This document shows, piece after piece, positions 15,460-22,878 of a stretch of DNA of 64,000 bases. Source of the DNA: Microbacterium lacus (GTDB taxonomy: Bacteria > Actinomycetota > Actinomycetes > Actinomycetales > Microbacteriaceae). The stretch lies in contig NZ_NMUM01000022.1 of assembly GCF_002812805.1 (NCBI RefSeq), positions 186,001 to 250,000 of the forward strand, read 5' to 3'. Position 1 is the first letter of the stretch. Every line of letters begins with the position of its first letter. The translations under genes were made by a program, and so were the position numbers. The notes under the pieces are model-generated. The model did not search any database. It had not been told where the DNA came from and was given only the letters and a program-made list of their open reading frames with translations.

Positions 15460-16873
15460 GGTCAAGTCCTGGGACGTGGTGTATCGGTGATCGTGTGATC
15501 CCTCGTGTCGAGGTCAGGCTGTGAGGGCCCGAAGGTCGGGTTCGATCACCTCCTCTGTGGTGGGTTCGCCGACGCGGCGTGCGGCGGCGAGGGCGTCGAG
15601 GCCGAGGTAGCGGCGTTGCTCGGCCCACTCGTCGTGTTGCTCGGCGAGGACGGCGCCGACGAGCCGGATGATCGCGTCGCGGTTCGGGAAGATGCCCACG
15701 ACGTCGGTGCGGCGGCGGATCTCCCGGTTGAGGCGTTCGTTCGGATTGTTGGACCAGATCTGCCGCCAGATGCTCTTCGGGAACGCGGTGAACGCGAGGA
15801 TCTCCTCACGTGCGGCCTCGAGGTGCTCGAACGACCTGGGGAGCTTGTGCTCGAGCGCGTCCAGGACGCGGTCGAACTGGGCGTGCACGGACTCCGCGTC
15901 GGGCTGGTCGAAAACCGTGCCCAGCAGGGTCTTCACCCATGGCCACGAGGACTTTGGGGTCACGCTCATCAGGTTCGCCGCGTAGTGGGTTCTGCACCTC
16001 TGCCAGGACCCGCCGACGGTCGCGCCGATCGCTGCGACCAGACCTGCGTGTGCGTCGGACGTGACGAGCTTCACGCCGGTCAGGCCTCTCGCGACGAGGT
16101 CGCGCCAGAACGTCAGCCAGCCGGCGCCGTCTTCGGTCGAGTTGACTTGCAGACCGAGGATCTCGCGGTAGCCGTCGGCGTTCACGCCGGTCGCGACCAG
16201 CACCGCGACCTTCACGACCCGGCCGCCCTCGCGGACCTTCATGGTGAGCGCGTCGGCGGCGACGAACGAGTACGGGCCGGCGTCCAACGGCCGGGTGCGG
16301 AACGCGGTCACCTGCTCGTCAAGGTCGCGCGCCATCTCCGACACCTGCGACTTCGACAGCCCGGTGATCCCGAGGGTCTTCACCAGGTCATCCATCCGAC
16401 GGGTGGACACGCCGAGGAGGTAGCTGGTCGCGACCACGGTGGTCAGTGCGGCCTCCGCGCGGCGGCGGCGTTCCAGCAGCCACTCCGGGAAGTAGGTGCC
16501 CTGCCGGAGCTTGGGGATCTTCACGTCGATGGTCCCGGCGCGGGTGTCGAAGTCGCGGTGGCGGTAACCGTTGCGACGGTTCACCCTGTCGTCGCTGATC
16601 GTGCCGTAAGCGGCGCCGCAGATCTGGTCCGCGTCCGCGGATAGCAGCTGGTTGATGAACGTGCCGAGCATCTCCCGCAGCAGATCGGGAGACGCCTGCG
16701 CGAGGTGGTCTTCGAGGAAGCGGGCAGGGTCGATATCGTGGGGTGAGACGGTCATCGTCGGGGTCCTTTCGAGATGGATGTGAAGAGTTCTCTCGAAGGA
16801 TCACGCGGTGACCGTCGCTACGTCCGCAGCGACACGGTCACCCGATCCGTACACCACCTTGCCGGACGCCACC
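15460..16873 (-). mobile_element. IS256-family insertion sequence
   Basis: About 1.41 kb with one transposase gene. Imperfect terminal inverted repeats are visible: the left end runs GTCCTGGGAC then GTGGTGTATCGG (15466-15487); the right end, read inwards, is GTCCGGCAAG then GTGGTGTACGG (16867-16847). The IS256 type element itself has GTCCG...GTGTA near its tips about six bases in, so I set the tips at GGT (15460 and 16873). Flanking octamers CCCGACGA (15452-15459) and CCCGTCGG (16874-16881) agree at 6 of 8 positions, which may be a decayed target duplication or chance. It lies in the intergenic space between the SRPBCC gene and the alcohol dehydrogenase. Confidence 0.85.
15514..16755 (-). CDS. 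IS256-family DDE transposase
   Basis: 413 residues, full length for the family. The mutator-type DDE residues are visible: D in 'FVAADALTMKVREGG', D in 'LVTSDAHAGLVAAIG' and E in 'WSNNPNERLNREIRRRTDVVGIFPN'. The characteristic 'WQRCRTHYAANLM' C/D-x-x-H motif sits between the second D and the E. No frameshift or stop interrupts it, so the element could be active. It is the only gene inside the inverted repeats. Confidence 0.97.
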   Translation of the reverse strand: MTVSPHDIDPARFLEDHLAQASPDLLREMLGTFINQLLSADADQICGAAYGTISDDRVNRRNGYRHRDFDTRAGTIDVKIPKLRQGTYFPEWLLERRRRAEAALTTVVATSYLLGVSTRRMDDLVKTLGITGLSKSQVSEMARDLDEQVTAFRTRPLDAGPYSFVAADALTMKVREGGRVVKVAVLVATGVNADGYREILGLQVNSTEDGAGWLTFWRDLVARGLTGVKLVTSDAHAGLVAAIGATVGGSWQRCRTHYAANLMSVTPKSSWPWVKTLLGTVFDQPDAESVHAQFDRVLDALEHKLPRSFEHLEAAREEILAFTAFPKSIWRQIWSNNPNERLNREIRRRTDVVGIFPNRDAIIRLVGAVLAEQHDEWAEQRRYLGLDALAAARRVGEPTTEEVIEPDLRALTA

Positions 16874-16958: not shown

Positions 16959-18134
16959 ATGAAGGCGCTCACCTGGCAGGCCAAGCGATCCGTATCGGTA
17001 GACGAGGTTCCAGACCCCCGCATCGAGTTCCCGACCGACGCGATCGTGAAGATCACGTCCACCGCCATCTGCGGCTCCGACCTGCACCTGTACGAACTGC
17101 TGGGGCCGTTCCTCGGCCGCGGGGACATCCTCGGTCACGAGCCGATGGGCGTTGTCGTCGAGGTGGGATCGGAGGTGACCAACCTCGCCGTGGGCGACCG
17201 CGTCGTCGTGCCGTTCAACATCTCGTGCGGGCACTGCTTCATGTGCCGCCGCGGGCTGCAGTCGCAGTGCGAGACGACACAGGTGCGTGAGTACGGCAGC
17301 GGCGCGGCGCTCTTCGGCTACACCAAGCTCTACGGTCAGGTGCCGGGCGGGCAGGCCGAATATCTGCGCGTACCCCACGCGGACTACAACCACATCCGAG
17401 TCGGTAGCGACCTGCCCGACGACCGCTACCTGTTCCTCAGCGACATCCTTCCGACCGCCTGGCAGGGCGTCGAGTACGCCGATGTGCCCGACGGTGGCAC
17501 CTTGGCGGTCATGGGGCTCGGGCCCGTGGGGCAGTTCGTGGCGCGGGTGGGTGTGCACCACGGCTTCCGCGTGCTCGCGGTGGACCCGGTGCCGGAGCGG
17601 CGGGCCATGGCCGAGCGGCACGGCGCGCTGACCTACGACCTCACCGACACCATCGTCGACGAGCTGCGCGACCTCACCGAGGGGCGCGGGGCCGACGCGG
17701 TTGTCGACGCCGTCGGCATGGCAGCGCACGGGAATCCCGGCGTACACGCCGCGCAGAGCGCGATCGGTCTGCTGCCCGACGCGATGGCTCGACCGCTCAT
17801 GGAGAAAGCCGGGATCGATCGGATGGCGGCGCTACACGCGTCGATCGACATCGTCCGTCGTGGCGGCACGGTCTCGCTGAGTGGTGTGTATGCGGGAGAC
17901 GCGGACATCCTGCCGATGAAGACGCTGTTCGACAAGCAGGTCAGCATGCGCATGGGTCAGTGCAACGTCAAGCGCTGGATCGACGAAATCCTGCCCCTCG
18001 TCGAGGACTCGAGCGATCCGCTCGGCGTCATGGACCTCACGACGCACCGCGTTCCGCTCGAGCGCGCTCCCGAGATGTACGAGACGTTCCAGAAGAAAGA
18101 GGATGGCTGCATCAAGGTCGTGCTGGAGCCGTAG
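16959..18134 (+). CDS. Zinc-dependent alcohol dehydrogenase (formaldehyde-dehydrogenase-like MDR)
   Basis: 391 residues. Catalytic zinc ligands are C in 'TAICGSDLHLY', H-E in 'GHEPMGVVVEVG' and D/E downstream; the structural-zinc lobe is 'NISCGHCFMCRRGLQSQC' (four Cys). The Rossmann motif is 'LAVMGLGPVGQFVARVGVHHGFRVLAVDPVPER'. Overall it matches the glutathione-independent formaldehyde dehydrogenase-like subgroup with the insert before the C-terminus. AAGAAGGAA precedes the ATG at 16959. It starts 85 bp beyond the IS right end, so its native promoter may have been displaced by the insertion. Substrate not determinable. Confidence 0.92.
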   Translation: MKALTWQAKRSVSVDEVPDPRIEFPTDAIVKITSTAICGSDLHLYELLGPFLGRGDILGHEPMGVVVEVGSEVTNLAVGDRVVVPFNISCGHCFMCRRGLQSQCETTQVREYGSGAALFGYTKLYGQVPGGQAEYLRVPHADYNHIRVGSDLPDDRYLFLSDILPTAWQGVEYADVPDGGTLAVMGLGPVGQFVARVGVHHGFRVLAVDPVPERRAMAERHGALTYDLTDTIVDELRDLTEGRGADAVVDAVGMAAHGNPGVHAAQSAIGLLPDAMARPLMEKAGIDRMAALHASIDIVRRGGTVSLSGVYAGDADILPMKTLFDKQVSMRMGQCNVKRWIDEILPLVEDSSDPLGVMDLTTHRVPLERAPEMYETFQKKEDGCIKVVLEP

Positions 18135-18174: not shown

Positions 18175-18387
18175 TCAGGCGTCTTCTTCGGGCGTCGGCG
18201 GGGGGCCGGGCCGAACCGCCGCCGTGTCGGCGATGTCGATTCGAGTGTTGCCGTCGTGCTTCGAAACGTCGATGCGCGGCGCCGCGTCCGATTCCACCGC
18301 GTCGGGTGCGGCGAGAAGCTGGTCGCGCCGCTTCTCTTCCTTCGTCATATCCATGTCGTCGGCACCGCTATTCGTCGTGTCATTCAT
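18175..18387 (-). CDS. Small charged protein, function unknown
   Basis: 70 residues: MNDTTNSGADDMDMTKEEKRR... with a Pro-rich end RPGPPPTPEEDA, no hydrophobic segment, probably disordered. Support comes from the promoter: TAGGGT (18394-18399) is exactly 6 bp before the ATG at 18387, the leaderless spacing used by recognised genes in this window. It is convergent with the dehydrogenase gene, 40 bp apart. No family recognised. Confidence 0.6.
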   Translation of the reverse strand: MNDTTNSGADDMDMTKEEKRRDQLLAAPDAVESDAAPRIDVSKHDGNTRIDIADTAAVRPGPPPTPEEDA

Positions 18388-18499
18388 GAGGCGACCCTAT
18401 GGCGGTCGTGCCCTTTTTCGCGCGGTCTGGTGCGGAACGGACGCGTCGTGCTAGCGCTCAACGCGCCGCCGTCGGAATGCCGTGATTAGCATAGACACT

Positions 18500-18634
18500 A
18501 TGACCACGCCCCAGAACGCCACCCAGAGCGCGCCCCTGCAGACCCTCCGTCCCGTTTCGGACGAGCAGAACCTGCTTGCCGCCAACACGCAGGATGCCGC
18601 GACCTCGTGCTGCGGCGGTGGCTGCTGCAGCTGA
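18500..18634 (+). CDS. 44-residue Cys-rich peptide ending CCGGGCCS
   Basis: MTTPQNATQSAPLQ... runs 35 residues without any Cys and then ends TSCCGGGCCS: four of the last eight residues are cysteine in a symmetric CC-GGG-CC arrangement. A TAGCAT hexamer (18487-18492) lies 7 bp before the ATG, so the mRNA is probably leaderless. A weak 6-bp hairpin follows (18636-18651). Possible roles are metal or thiol binding, or a precursor peptide whose Cys-rich tail is the core; no maturation enzyme (YcaO, LanM, radical SAM) is nearby, so I do not assign a RiPP. The next gene, a PfpI/DJ-1 protein, is convergent. Confidence 0.65.
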   Translation: MTTPQNATQSAPLQTLRPVSDEQNLLAANTQDAATSCCGGGCCS

Positions 18635-18693: not shown

Positions 18694-19242
18694 TCAGGCG
18701 TGCTGTCCGGCGTGCGCGCCTTCCGCGATCTCTTCGATCACCTTCGCGTTGAACGCGGGAAGGTCGTCGGGGGTCCGGCTCGATACCAGGCCCTGGTCGA
18801 CGACCACCTCTTCGTCAACCCACTCGGCGCCGGCGTTTTTCAGATCCGTCTTCAGGCTCGGGTAGCTGGTGATCGTGCGGCCGTCCACGACGCCCGCCTC
18901 GATGAGAAGCCACGAGCCGTGGCAGATGACGCCGACCGGCTTGGATGCCTCGAAAAATGCCTTCGCGAAGGCGATGGATGCCTCGTCCATGCGTAGGTGA
19001 TCCGCGTTGACGACGCCACCCGGAAGGACGAGCGCGTCAAACGAGTCGGCATGGGCCGACGCCGACAGCTCGTCCACATTCTGCGTATGGCCGTTCTTGC
19101 CCTCGATCGAGTCGCCCTTCGGTGCGACCATGAGGGCGGCCCCGCCGGCATTCGTGACGGCCGCCCAGGGCGAGGTCAATTCGCTGTCTTCGAAGCCGTC
19201 AGTGGCGAGAAATGCGATGCGTTTTCCTGTGAGATCAGTCAT
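18694..19242 (-). CDS. DJ-1/PfpI-family (type 1 glutamine amidotransferase-like) protein
   Basis: 182 residues: 'GKRIAFLATDGFEDSELTSPWAAVTNAGG...' followed by 'FDALVLPGGVVNADHLRMD' and the nucleophile elbow 'VGVICHGSWLLIEAG' with Cys about residue 120, next to the family's His. The order matches YhbO/PfpI-type stress proteins, proposed to be glyoxalases or protein/nucleotide deglycases. The longer upstream reading frame is an antisense artefact; the start MTDLTGK at 19242 has TAGCGT 7 bp before it (19250-19255), fitting a leaderless message. Confidence 0.92.
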   Translation of the reverse strand: MTDLTGKRIAFLATDGFEDSELTSPWAAVTNAGGAALMVAPKGDSIEGKNGHTQNVDELSASAHADSFDALVLPGGVVNADHLRMDEASIAFAKAFFEASKPVGVICHGSWLLIEAGVVDGRTITSYPSLKTDLKNAGAEWVDEEVVVDQGLVSSRTPDDLPAFNAKVIEEIAEGAHAGQHA

Positions 19243-19316: not shown

Positions 19317-20792
19317 TCAGTGCACGGGTGCGTTGCCGGACTCGACCATGTCCGCGGGCTTGCGTACGAACAGGGCGAGCGGGACCGCTGCGGAGGCGAG
19401 GACGGCGCCGACGAAGAACGCCGTGTGCACGCCTGCCGCTGTGGCGGCGACCTGATCGGTTCCCTCTGCGAGGGCTGCCGCGGCGGTCACCGACATGAGC
19501 GTGACGAAGAGTGCGGTGCCCGCAGCTCCGGCGACCTGCTGCATCGTGCCGACGGTCGCGCTGCCGTATGGGTACAGGCGCGGAGGGAGCGACCCGAGCG
19601 CAGAGGTCAGCAGGGGGGTGAAGACGAGACCGAGGCCGAGATTCAGGCCCAGGTGGACAGCGATGACCCAACCGACGGTGGTGCCGGCGTCGAAGGTCGC
19701 CATGCCCCAGAGCGAGCCTGCGGCGATGACCATACCCGGAATGACCAGCGGCGTCGGACCGAACCTGTCGAACGCGTTTCCCACGAAAGGCGCCATCACG
19801 CCCATGAGCACGCCGCCGGGGAGCAGCATCAGACCGACGCTGAGGACGTTTAGCCCGAGCACCTGCTGCAGGTAGATCGGGAGAAGGATCAGCGAACCGA
19901 ACAGGCTTGCCATGACGATGACCACGAGCACGACAGCGAGGCTGAACGTCTTGCTCTGGAACGTGCGCAGGTCCAGGAGTGCGCCGTCCACCTTCTGCAG
20001 CTGAAGCTGACGCAAGACGAACGCGACGAGAGACACGCTGCCCACGACCAGCGGAATCCATATCGGCACGGGCGCTTCACCGGCGGCGGCCTCACCGATA
20101 CTGCTGAGGCCGAAGATCAGTCCGCCGAATCCGACGGCAGAAAGTACGACGGAGAGTACGTCGAAGCGCGCGTCTGGGCGGGTCTTCGTGACGTTGCGCA
20201 CCCATACCGCTCCGAGGGCGAGCGCGATGAGAGCGATGGGAAGGACCGACCAGAAGAGGAAGTGCCAGGTCGCGATGGAGAGGATGAGCCCGGAGACCGT
20301 CGGGCCGACCGCGGGGGCAACCGCGATGACGATCGTGATGACGCCCATCATCCGTCCTCGATGTGAAGCGGGCACGATGGTGAGCACCGTCGTGAACAGC
20401 AGCGGCATCATGATCGCTGTTCCCGACGCCTGAACGATTCGGCCGGCGAGGAGCACCTCGAACGTGGGTGCCAGTGCACCGATGAGCGTGCCCGTGGAGA
20501 AGAGGATCATCGCGGCGAAGAACACGTTGCGCAGCGGGAAGCGCTCGAGCAGGAAGCCCGTCAGGGGAATGACGACGGCCATCGTCAGCAGGAATCCGGT
20601 CGTCAGCCACTGGCCGGTCGCTGCGGTAACGCCGAGATCTTCCATGATGGGGGTCAACGCAACGCCCATGACGGTCTCGTTGAGGATGACAACGAACGCG
20701 GCGATGACGAGGAGCGCGATGACCGGTCCGGCCTTCACGGCGGGGGTCGTCGGTGTGGACGCGGTTTCGGGCGGTGAATCCTGCAGAGTCAA
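19317..20792 (-). CDS. MFS transporter, DHA2 (EmrB/QacA-like) drug exporter
   Basis: 491 residues, about 14 hydrophobic segments. Motif A-like loop 'LTGFLLERFPLRNVFFAAMILFSTGTL', motif C-like 'ITIVIAVAPAVGPTVSGLILS' and the N-terminal 'VVILNETVMGVALTPIMEDLGVTAATGQWLTTGFLLTMAVVIPL' place it in DHA2. It is likely to export hydrophobic drugs using the proton motive force. The start is TTG at 20792 with AAGGAA five bases upstream. It sits alone; no divergent regulator gene is adjacent, unlike the second DHA2 exporter at 23.7 kb. Confidence 0.92.
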   Translation of the reverse strand: MTLQDSPPETASTPTTPAVKAGPVIALLVIAAFVVILNETVMGVALTPIMEDLGVTAATGQWLTTGFLLTMAVVIPLTGFLLERFPLRNVFFAAMILFSTGTLIGALAPTFEVLLAGRIVQASGTAIMMPLLFTTVLTIVPASHRGRMMGVITIVIAVAPAVGPTVSGLILSIATWHFLFWSVLPIALIALALGAVWVRNVTKTRPDARFDVLSVVLSAVGFGGLIFGLSSIGEAAAGEAPVPIWIPLVVGSVSLVAFVLRQLQLQKVDGALLDLRTFQSKTFSLAVVLVVIVMASLFGSLILLPIYLQQVLGLNVLSVGLMLLPGGVLMGVMAPFVGNAFDRFGPTPLVIPGMVIAAGSLWGMATFDAGTTVGWVIAVHLGLNLGLGLVFTPLLTSALGSLPPRLYPYGSATVGTMQQVAGAAGTALFVTLMSVTAAAALAEGTDQVAATAAGVHTAFFVGAVLASAAVPLALFVRKPADMVESGNAPVH

Positions 20793-21000: not shown

Positions 21001-22878
21001 ATGAGTATGCCGCGCGGGGGCTTCGGTGGGGGTCTGACCCGCGGGGTGGACGCCGACGCCCAGCGTGAGCGCAATGCCGACGCCCCTGACATCCCGAACC
21101 TGGGCGGGCGCATCGTCGCGCTCTTCCGCCCGTATCGAGGGCGCCTGGCCGTCACCGCCGCGCTGGTCGTCGTCAGCGCCGCGATCGGAGTCGTCCCCGC
21201 GCTGATCATCGAGGTCATCTTCGACTCGGCACTTTTCCCGGCCGGTGACGCCGGGCCGAACCTGCGCCTGCTCGTCGAACTCGTGGCGCTCATGATCGGC
21301 TTGTTCGTGGCATCCGCGGGCCTGAACGTCATCCAGACCTGGCTCACCTCGACCGTCGGCAACCGCGTCACGGGCGACCTGCGCGTTCGGCTCTTCACGC
21401 ACTTGCAGGCGATGGACCTGTCGTTCTTCACGCGCACGAAGACCGGCGTGATCCAGTCGCGGCTGCAGAACGACGTCGGTGGGGTCGCGAGCGTACTGAC
21501 CAACACATTCACGAGCATCCTCGGCAACACCGTCACGGTGATCGCCTCGGTCGTCGCGATGGTGATGATCGACTGGCGCCTCACCCTCATCGCCCTCGGG
21601 CTGCTGCCCGGCCTCGTTTTCGTGCAGCGCCGCGTCGGCCAGGTGCGTGCCAAGATCGCCGCCGAGACGCAGGAGTCGCTGTCGCAGCTGACGGCCATCA
21701 CGCAAGAGACGCTCTCGGTTTCCGGCATCCTGCTCGCGAAGGCGTTCCACCGGCAGAGCGCCGAGATCGAGCGCTACACGGTCGAGAACGGCAACCAGGT
21801 CGTGCTGCAAGTGCGGCAGGCGATGTCGGGGCAGTGGTTCTTCGGGATCGTCAGCATCATCATGTCGTCGGTGCCGGCGATCATCTACCTCGTCGCGGGT
21901 CTGCTGATCACAGGCGGCAGCGCGGACATATCGGCGGGCGTGATCGTCGCTTTCACGACCGTGCAGGCGCGTCTGCTCTTCCCGCTGATGGCGCTCATGC
22001 GTGTCACGCTCGACCTGCAGACCTCTCGGGCACTGTTTGCGCGCATCTTCGAATACCTCGATCTCGAGCCCGCGATCACCGAATCGCCCACGGCCACGGA
22101 CGTCGAGGCTGCTCCCGGGCCGCTCGGGCGCGTCGAGTTCCGTGACGTGACCTTTCGGTACCCCGACGCCGCCGGCACGACACGGCCGACCCTCGACGGG
22201 GTGTCGTTCGTCGCCGAGCCCGGGCAGCACGTCGCCTTCGTCGGCCCGAGCGGGGCAGGTAAGACGACCATCCTGTACCTCGCACCGCGGTTGTACGAGG
22301 CATCCTCCGGCTCCGTGCTGTTCGCCGGCGCGGACGTGCGCGATCTGCGGCAGGCATCGATCATCGAGAACATCGGCATCGTGTCGCAAGAGACGTACCT
22401 GTTTCACGCGACGGTGCGCGAGAACCTCGCATATGCCAAGGCGGGCGCGACGCAGGCAGAGCTGGAGGACGCCTGCCGTGCCGCGAACATCCACCACGTG
22501 ATCGAGGGGTTCGCCGAAGGCTACGACACGATCGTGGGGGAGCGCGGCTACCGTCTATCCGGTGGCGAGAAGCAACGCATCGCGATCGCCCGCGTGCTGC
22601 TGAAGGATCCGCCCGTGCTGCTGCTCGACGAAGCCACGAGTGCCCTCGACACCGTGTCGGAACGAGTCGTGCAGCGCGCGCTGGATGCCGCGGCCCGGGG
22701 TCGCACGACACTCTCGATCGCGCACCGCCTCTCGACCGTGGTCGGCGCCGATGTCATCCACGTCGTCGAGGGTGGTCGCATCGTCGAGAGCGGCACACAC
22801 TCCGAGCTGATGGCCGACGGCGGGCTGTACGCCGAACTCGCGATGCGCCAGGTGGAGGCATCGAGCGGCCTCGCTTGA
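21001..22878 (+). CDS. ABC exporter half-transporter (fused permease and ATPase)
   Basis: 625 residues. A six-helix type-1 ABC exporter domain (about 40-330: 'RPYRGRLAVTAALVVVSAAIGVVPALIIEVIFDSAL', 'NVIQTWLTSTVGNRVTGDLRVRLFTHLQAMDLSFFTRTKTG') is followed by an ATPase domain with Walker A GPSGAGKTT, Q-loop 'IGIVSQETYLFHATVRENL', signature LSGGEKQR, Walker B VLLLDEATSALD and H-loop SIAHRL. It would work as a homodimer or with a partner not present here. TAGGCT lies 6 bp before the ATG, so transcription probably starts at the codon itself. Substrate unknown; lipid or drug export is usual. Confidence 0.93.
   Translation: MSMPRGGFGGGLTRGVDADAQRERNADAPDIPNLGGRIVALFRPYRGRLAVTAALVVVSAAIGVVPALIIEVIFDSALFPAGDAGPNLRLLVELVALMIGLFVASAGLNVIQTWLTSTVGNRVTGDLRVRLFTHLQAMDLSFFTRTKTGVIQSRLQNDVGGVASVLTNTFTSILGNTVTVIASVVAMVMIDWRLTLIALGLLPGLVFVQRRVGQVRAKIAAETQESLSQLTAITQETLSVSGILLAKAFHRQSAEIERYTVENGNQVVLQVRQAMSGQWFFGIVSIIMSSVPAIIYLVAGLLITGGSADISAGVIVAFTTVQARLLFPLMALMRVTLDLQTSRALFARIFEYLDLEPAITESPTATDVEAAPGPLGRVEFRDVTFRYPDAAGTTRPTLDGVSFVAEPGQHVAFVGPSGAGKTTILYLAPRLYEASSGSVLFAGADVRDLRQASIIENIGIVSQETYLFHATVRENLAYAKAGATQAELEDACRAANIHHVIEGFAEGYDTIVGERGYRLSGGEKQRIAIARVLLKDPPVLLLDEATSALDTVSERVVQRALDAAARGRTTLSIAHRLSTVVGADVIHVVEGGRIVESGTHSELMADGGLYAELAMRQVEASSGLA

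Follow-up and report, generated by a model that had tools for sequence, protein, structure and literature searches.

The window analysed here, a stretch of 64,000 nucleotides of Microbacterium lacus DNA, contains at positions 18500 to 18634 a genuine, conserved gene encoding a 44-residue peptide. To judge from sequence comparisons, this peptide is probably the detached C-terminal tail of the disulfide oxidoreductase FrnE, relocated and placed under a leaderless promoter of its own, which would act in trans as a diffusible dithiol.

A conserved leaderless gene in Microbacterium

The gene, its proposed functional elements and the neighbours that serve as landmarks of the locus are arranged in the window as follows:

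18487 to 18492, + strand: –10-like hexamer TAGCAT, read by eye, 7 nt before the ATG in a leaderless layout
18500 to 18634, + strand: peptide gene, proposed detached FrnE tail, 44 aa, stop codon TGA at 18632 to 18634
18569 to 18577, + strand: Asn-Leu-Leu codons (residues 24 to 26), seen in alignments, proposed counterpart of the FrnE-tail hydrophobic patch
18608 to 18628, + strand: CCGGGCC codons (residues 37 to 43), with two overlapping C-x4-C pairs (37/42 and 38/43)
18694 to 19242, – strand: DJ-1/PfpI family gene (Pfam PF01965, E 2.4e-51), convergent neighbour, given as context and not claimed as a partner
19317 to 20792, – strand: MFS transporter, conserved locus landmark in 20 of 21 loci
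21001 to 22878, + strand: ABC transporter, landmark conserved at 19 of 21 loci, 2.4 kb from the peptide gene

Translation of the + strand at 18500 to 18634 gives MTTPQNATQSAPLQTLRPVSDEQNLLAANTQDAATSCCGGGCCS, 44 amino acids followed by a stop, and, as an earlier note on this DNA had stated, the only four cysteines of the peptide lie within its last eight residues. The same note had proposed a leaderless gene with a promoter at 7 bp, which held when relatives were compared. Among 55 distinct Microbacterium genes extracted from the supplied loci (14 loci were dropped, having no gene that matched the pattern of the script), a TANNNT hexamer ended 6 or 7 nt before the ATG in all 55, none had it at a different spacing between 0 and 39 nt, and an SD-like string was found in 2 of the 55. 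No clear –35 element was seen by eye upstream of the 18500 gene. Additionally, in a blind scan for TANNNT, a gap of 5 to 8 nt, ATG and an ORF of 25 to 110 aa ending in C-x4-C, this gene was the single match of the whole 64-kb window, and the 20 related loci scanned (19 of 16 kb and one of 10 kb) gave one match apiece.

The small size and the conservation of the gene were likewise confirmed. Matches to the peptide were found in 46 of 149 Microbacterium genomes at E < 0.001 and, with the limit relaxed to E 1, in 103, and among CCGG-type genes dN was lower than dS in 552 of 556 usable pairs, with a median dN/dS of 0.39. A profile combining the two Microbacterium peptide types gave a match in 137 of 198 genomes at E 0.05 and nothing at that threshold in 61 of the 198. 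In 10 of 17 Microbacterium genomes without a clear match, the genome G007 among them, a leaderless C-x4-C peptide was recognised in diverged form close to an MFS gene of the window kind; since only 10 of these 17 had it, some Microbacterium may lack the peptide yet keep FrnE.

When the motif was searched for in relatives among the Microbacteriaceae, C-x4-C was kept, whereas CCGGGCC varied. The 38/43 pair is present in all aligned rows of peptide relatives, which often read CCGGGSC or YC[SG][GD]GVC types instead of CCGGGCC. The invariant part is C-x4-C, and the CC-GGG-CC symmetry is less conserved than its appearance suggests; symmetry was dropped as the key feature because relatives keep C-x4-C but vary elsewhere. 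The earlier note had argued from the symmetric motif to metal or thiol chemistry or a modified core: a thiol role is indeed likely, but symmetry as a conserved unit did not survive the comparison.

The window-type locus is syntenic, and its conserved neighbours across 21 loci, according to the author's heuristic gene calls, are transporters and housekeeping genes. On the other side of the peptide gene in the window, a Mutator-family transposase (15514 to 16755, – strand; Pfam E 7.2e-138) adjoins a zinc-type alcohol dehydrogenase gene (16959 to 18134), and a 70-aa ORF, MNDTTNSGADDMDMTKEEKRRDQLL... (18175 to 18387, – strand), may be a further small gene in the interval that separates the dehydrogenase from the peptide.

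FrnE with a fused, adjacent or missing tail

According to a review (PMC8945050, section 2.4), the FrnE of D. radiodurans has a C-terminal tail carrying 239-CXXXXC-244, and in all structures of this protein the tail of one molecule is found at the active site of another. A Cys244-Cys22 intermolecular disulfide was present in one condition, and the tail was proposed to regenerate the active site. This tail also contains PLTMLG, which resembles the detached peptides.

The FrnE loci taken outside the set of other Microbacteriaceae genera comprised 30 listed ones and 20 picked by the author from the remaining rows of the match list. Outside the Microbacteriaceae, a fused C-x4-C tail was present in 28 of 42 readable sampled FrnEs, reading CGPDGC in 18, close variants of it in 7 and other sequences in 3; in the FrnE of L274 the fused tail carries CCGGSCC and ends GGCCGGSCCG. 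One of the 28 tail-fused FrnEs is also followed by a small C-x4-C ORF, which looks spurious, and 2 of the 14 tail-less FrnEs outside the family have such an ORF adjacent to them, the one at L147 carrying CGPDGC itself.

A different arrangement was found within the family. For the other Microbacteriaceae genera, the author picked 80 of 131 genomes with a match and took a single FrnE locus per genome; none of the 79 readable FrnEs had a fused tail. A small C-x4-C ORF came immediately after FrnE at 61 of these 79 loci, against 72 of 1580 in a shuffled control that preserves base composition only. In 51 of the 61 the FrnE and tail genes overlap by 4 nt, and the gene following FrnE in these genera starts either through this overlap or via an SD-like site, as judged by eye; five of the 61 ORFs are of the CCGG type. 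By the same rule, the adjacent tail gene is absent at 18 of 79 loci, including L215, which is cut by the contig end. An earlier rule, stricter at the C-terminal end, had given 38 of 98 readable loci, two false calls (L210 and L263) included.

The same linkage was reached from the side of the peptide. A profile built from Microbacterium only had matches in 19 of 349 family genomes, 16 of them outside the genus, and 10 of these 16 matches are small genes directly downstream, on the same strand, of a CPWC DsbA-family gene; four of the matched genomes outside Microbacterium belong to the genus g50. Profile searches at the level of the order and the class added few stand-alone CCGG genes, with 16 of 347 and 7 of 296 genomes, respectively, Microbacterium included. 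The weak matches at L067, L068, L130, L133, L166 and L167 look like chance or unrelated proteins and were set aside. As a separate observation, L347 and L349 (genomes G207 and G231) encode in two genera a stand-alone mini-protein, MA[TI]A[ND]IKLETPSATVGGGEEGGCCGGACCGGK; FrnE in these genera has neither a tail nor an adjacent tail gene, and a second, independent relocation is possible.

In Microbacterium, FrnE was present in all 31 genomes searched, 20 with and 11 without the CCGG peptide. Among the best 30 matches of these 31 genomes, no FrnE locus showed a tail (0 of 30), an adjacent C-x4-C ORF occurred at 1 of 30, which is no more than in the control (35 of 600), and Dus was found near FrnE at 29 of 30, compared with 45 of 80 loci in other genera; FrnE itself has thus stayed where it was. 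The FrnE of the window's genome lies outside the window, on a different contig from the peptide (G000:C31:407172); it has a DSBA domain (Pfam E 4.3e-39) and matches the D. radiodurans FrnE 5cnw at E 2.1e-59, in an alignment that stops short of the tail, at chain residue 225 of 260. A glutathione peroxidase gene sits between FrnE and Dus in this genome; on the minus strand of L112, a glutathione peroxidase (Pfam E 7.1e-37) occupies the place between FrnE and Dus where other genera have the tail gene.

No CPWC gene was found near the peptide in 20 Microbacterium loci. Because the peptide is neither fused to nor encoded beside FrnE in this genus, it was classed as working like, and derived from, the FrnE tail, and not as a plain member of that group; its CCGG relatives stand beside FrnE in other genera and are fused to it in L274. 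The tail-less FrnE is the same whether or not a Microbacterium genome encodes the CCGG peptide, which means that in this genus the occurrence of the peptide does not follow the form of the enzyme.

The earlier note had recognised no homologue of the peptide; relatives were nevertheless found in Microbacterium, in other genera, and among FrnE-adjacent and fused tails. Pfam and NCBIfam gave no match for the window peptide or for six detached tails, and it is through profile comparisons that a chain of homology would link the window peptide to the FrnE tails. The window type matched the FrnE-adjacent CCGG peptides at E 5e-14, the second Microbacterium type matched the FrnE-adjacent non-CCGG peptides at E 4e-9, and these last matched the fused tails at E 7.5e-8; for each of the three comparisons, none of 60 column shuffles reached the score. 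The window type also matched the fused tails directly at E 8e-5, with none of 60 shuffles as good, and the second Microbacterium type at only E 9e-4. The comparison of the window type with the FrnE-adjacent non-CCGG tails, the commonest kind, was not significant (E 0.08, with 38 of 60 shuffles scoring as high), and that of the second Microbacterium type with the fused tails did not stand out from its shuffles, 9 of 60 of which equal the score.

An NLL/LLTLL stretch, a candidate for the hydrophobic patch looked for 8 to 18 residues ahead of C-x4-C, is seen in the alignments of the peptides, and Asn-Leu-Leu at residues 24 to 26 of the window peptide may be the counterpart of the patch in FrnE tails (LTMLG and similar). 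The element common to peptides and FrnE tails would be a C-x4-C behind a short hydrophobic patch. With a profile of FrnE-adjacent tails containing no Microbacterium rows, the sole match in G007 and in G024 was the leaderless peptide, which adjoins an MFS gene located by means of the window's MFS protein; in G000, the window peptide escaped this profile at E 0.1, and the best match was an unrelated frame.

Proposed action in trans and alternative readings

If the peptide is a detached tail, FrnE, a cytoplasmic DsbA-family disulfide oxidoreductase, would retain just its CPWC active site, and the separate peptide would provide the C-x4-C dithiol. The hydrophobic stretch of the peptide would dock beside the FrnE active site, one cysteine of C-x4-C would form a mixed disulfide with the first cysteine of CPWC, and the peptide would then hand electrons on, by which FrnE would be reset. 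The cooperation of the window peptide with FrnE, the direction of electron flow and the final partner are what we infer from the sequences. In the AlphaFold2 model of the fused L274 protein, the mean pLDDT is 93 and residues 221 to 226 fall under 50, and this low confidence suggests that the tail is a flexible end outside the fold. Since the D. radiodurans tail works between molecules, covalent linkage would be dispensable in principle. The peptide shares with the CXXXXC tails of FrnE from D. radiodurans (DR_0659, PDB 5cnw) and S. coelicolor (SCO1869, PDB 3gl5) a terminal C-x4-C, in its case behind a putative hydrophobic patch; in contrast to them, it is separate, unlinked and leaderless, and has CCGGGCC in place of CGPDGC.

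It is unlikely that the peptide is instead a small metal-binding protein, whose four cysteines would hold Cu(I) or Zn(II) in a buffer or chaperone independent of FrnE, although metals do appear around the motif. In three g50 genomes (L086, L088 and L128), CCGGGCC precedes a heavy-metal (HMA) domain in the same ORF, with Pfam HMA at E 3.4e-14 for the L086 protein, and at L086 and L088 a second protein with GMTCSSC, P-type ATPase-like by eye, is encoded close by; the FrnE of D. radiodurans has itself been linked to cadmium (PMC8945050). However, many relatives in the same role have two or three cysteines only (YCSGGVC, CCGGGSC), the fused and FrnE-adjacent tails are mostly two-cysteine, and the genes conserved around the window-type locus include none recognised as a copper or zinc gene. 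A stand-alone metal protein was rejected as first choice because of these relatives with fewer cysteines and the lack of recognised copper or zinc genes nearby. Moreover, a redox role is possible even in g50, since the FrnE of two g50 genomes is tail-less and has no adjacent tail gene. CopZ-like HMA copper chaperones find a parallel in one genus, where an HMA domain comes after CCGGGCC, but the window peptide has neither an HMA domain nor a recognised metal-transport neighbour. The g50 HMA (CopZ-type) fusions are, in their own right, a possible bridge from the FrnE-tail motif to copper handling. The motif was also observed in other settings: a DUF3151 protein at L131 (around 1518, – strand reading; Pfam E 9.1e-31) ends GGCCGGACCS, a similar tail on an unrelated protein; a small CCGGGCCGG frame lies just behind a chlorite dismutase-like (HemQ-type) gene at L135, near 1524; and a small ORF at L134 (1456 to 1572), ending GGCCGGSCGCGN, stands behind an M13 peptidase-like gene (by eye). 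Since the HMA protein, the DUF3151 protein and further small ORFs all bear motifs of the CCGGGCC type, FrnE is not their only setting.

The layout of the gene recalls the mycobacterial polycysteine leaderless sORFs (Canestrari et al. 2020, cited in PMC9031893), which are also leaderless and short, with consecutive Cys codons, and the crowding of Cys codons at the end, as in M. smegmatis (PMC9031893), would suit a cysteine-responsive attenuator of a downstream operon, in which the peptide itself is irrelevant. Such a role is very improbable here, since no operon follows the window peptide on its own strand, and the peptide is conserved as a protein (dN/dS 0.39) and is linked in other genera to FrnE, which its gene follows through a 4-nt overlap or an SD-like site. 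The gene after the peptide runs towards it in the window and at 13 of the other 20 loci, and 7 of 21 have it on the same strand, orientations that come from rough heuristic gene calls in which the script missed the window's own convergent PfpI gene. The attenuator was thus rejected on the convergent neighbour, the constrained protein and the FrnE linkage elsewhere. The earlier suggestion of a modified-peptide core, that is, the precursor of a RiPP with a Cys-rich core, is the least credible of the readings, even though the peptide is short, with a variable N-terminal part and a Cys core at its C-terminus, and an ABC transporter lies 2.4 kb off. The neighbours across 21 loci are transporters and housekeeping genes, with no maturation enzyme recognised by eye among the conserved clusters, which makes such a core unlikely; the peptide had no Pfam or NCBIfam match, and its relatives are either fused to an oxidoreductase or encoded in overlap with one. 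It was rejected for the lack of a recognised maturation enzyme nearby and for the tie of its relatives to an oxidoreductase. The detached FrnE tail is the reading retained after these rejections.

Significance for the Microbacteriaceae

Literature on FrnE together with Microbacteriaceae was searched for and none was found, a search on CCGGGCC with cysteine and protein returned unrelated work only, and no report of a detached FrnE tail was found in the literature searched on FrnE, CXXXXC and CCGGGCC. A thiol oxidoreductase normally has its resolving cysteines in a folded partner, whether they are its own or borrowed. In most of the Microbacteriaceae genera sampled, the flexible tail of FrnE seems to have been severed and retained as a gene of approximately 26 to 76 codons. 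A detached tail makes the intermolecular role proposed for the D. radiodurans tail directly testable, and on this reading a whole class of tiny leaderless genes would acquire a function.

A broader interpretation is tentative and rather doubtful at present, namely that of a redox enzyme split across the whole family, in which the FrnE dithiol became a mini-protein, encoded by an overlapping gene and then, in Microbacterium, by an unlinked leaderless one, and turned into a free 4-kDa carrier possibly serving FrnE and other clients. If true, this carrier would be the equivalent, encoded by a gene, of a low-molecular-weight thiol, and the HMA fusion of g50 may give it a part in copper handling as well.
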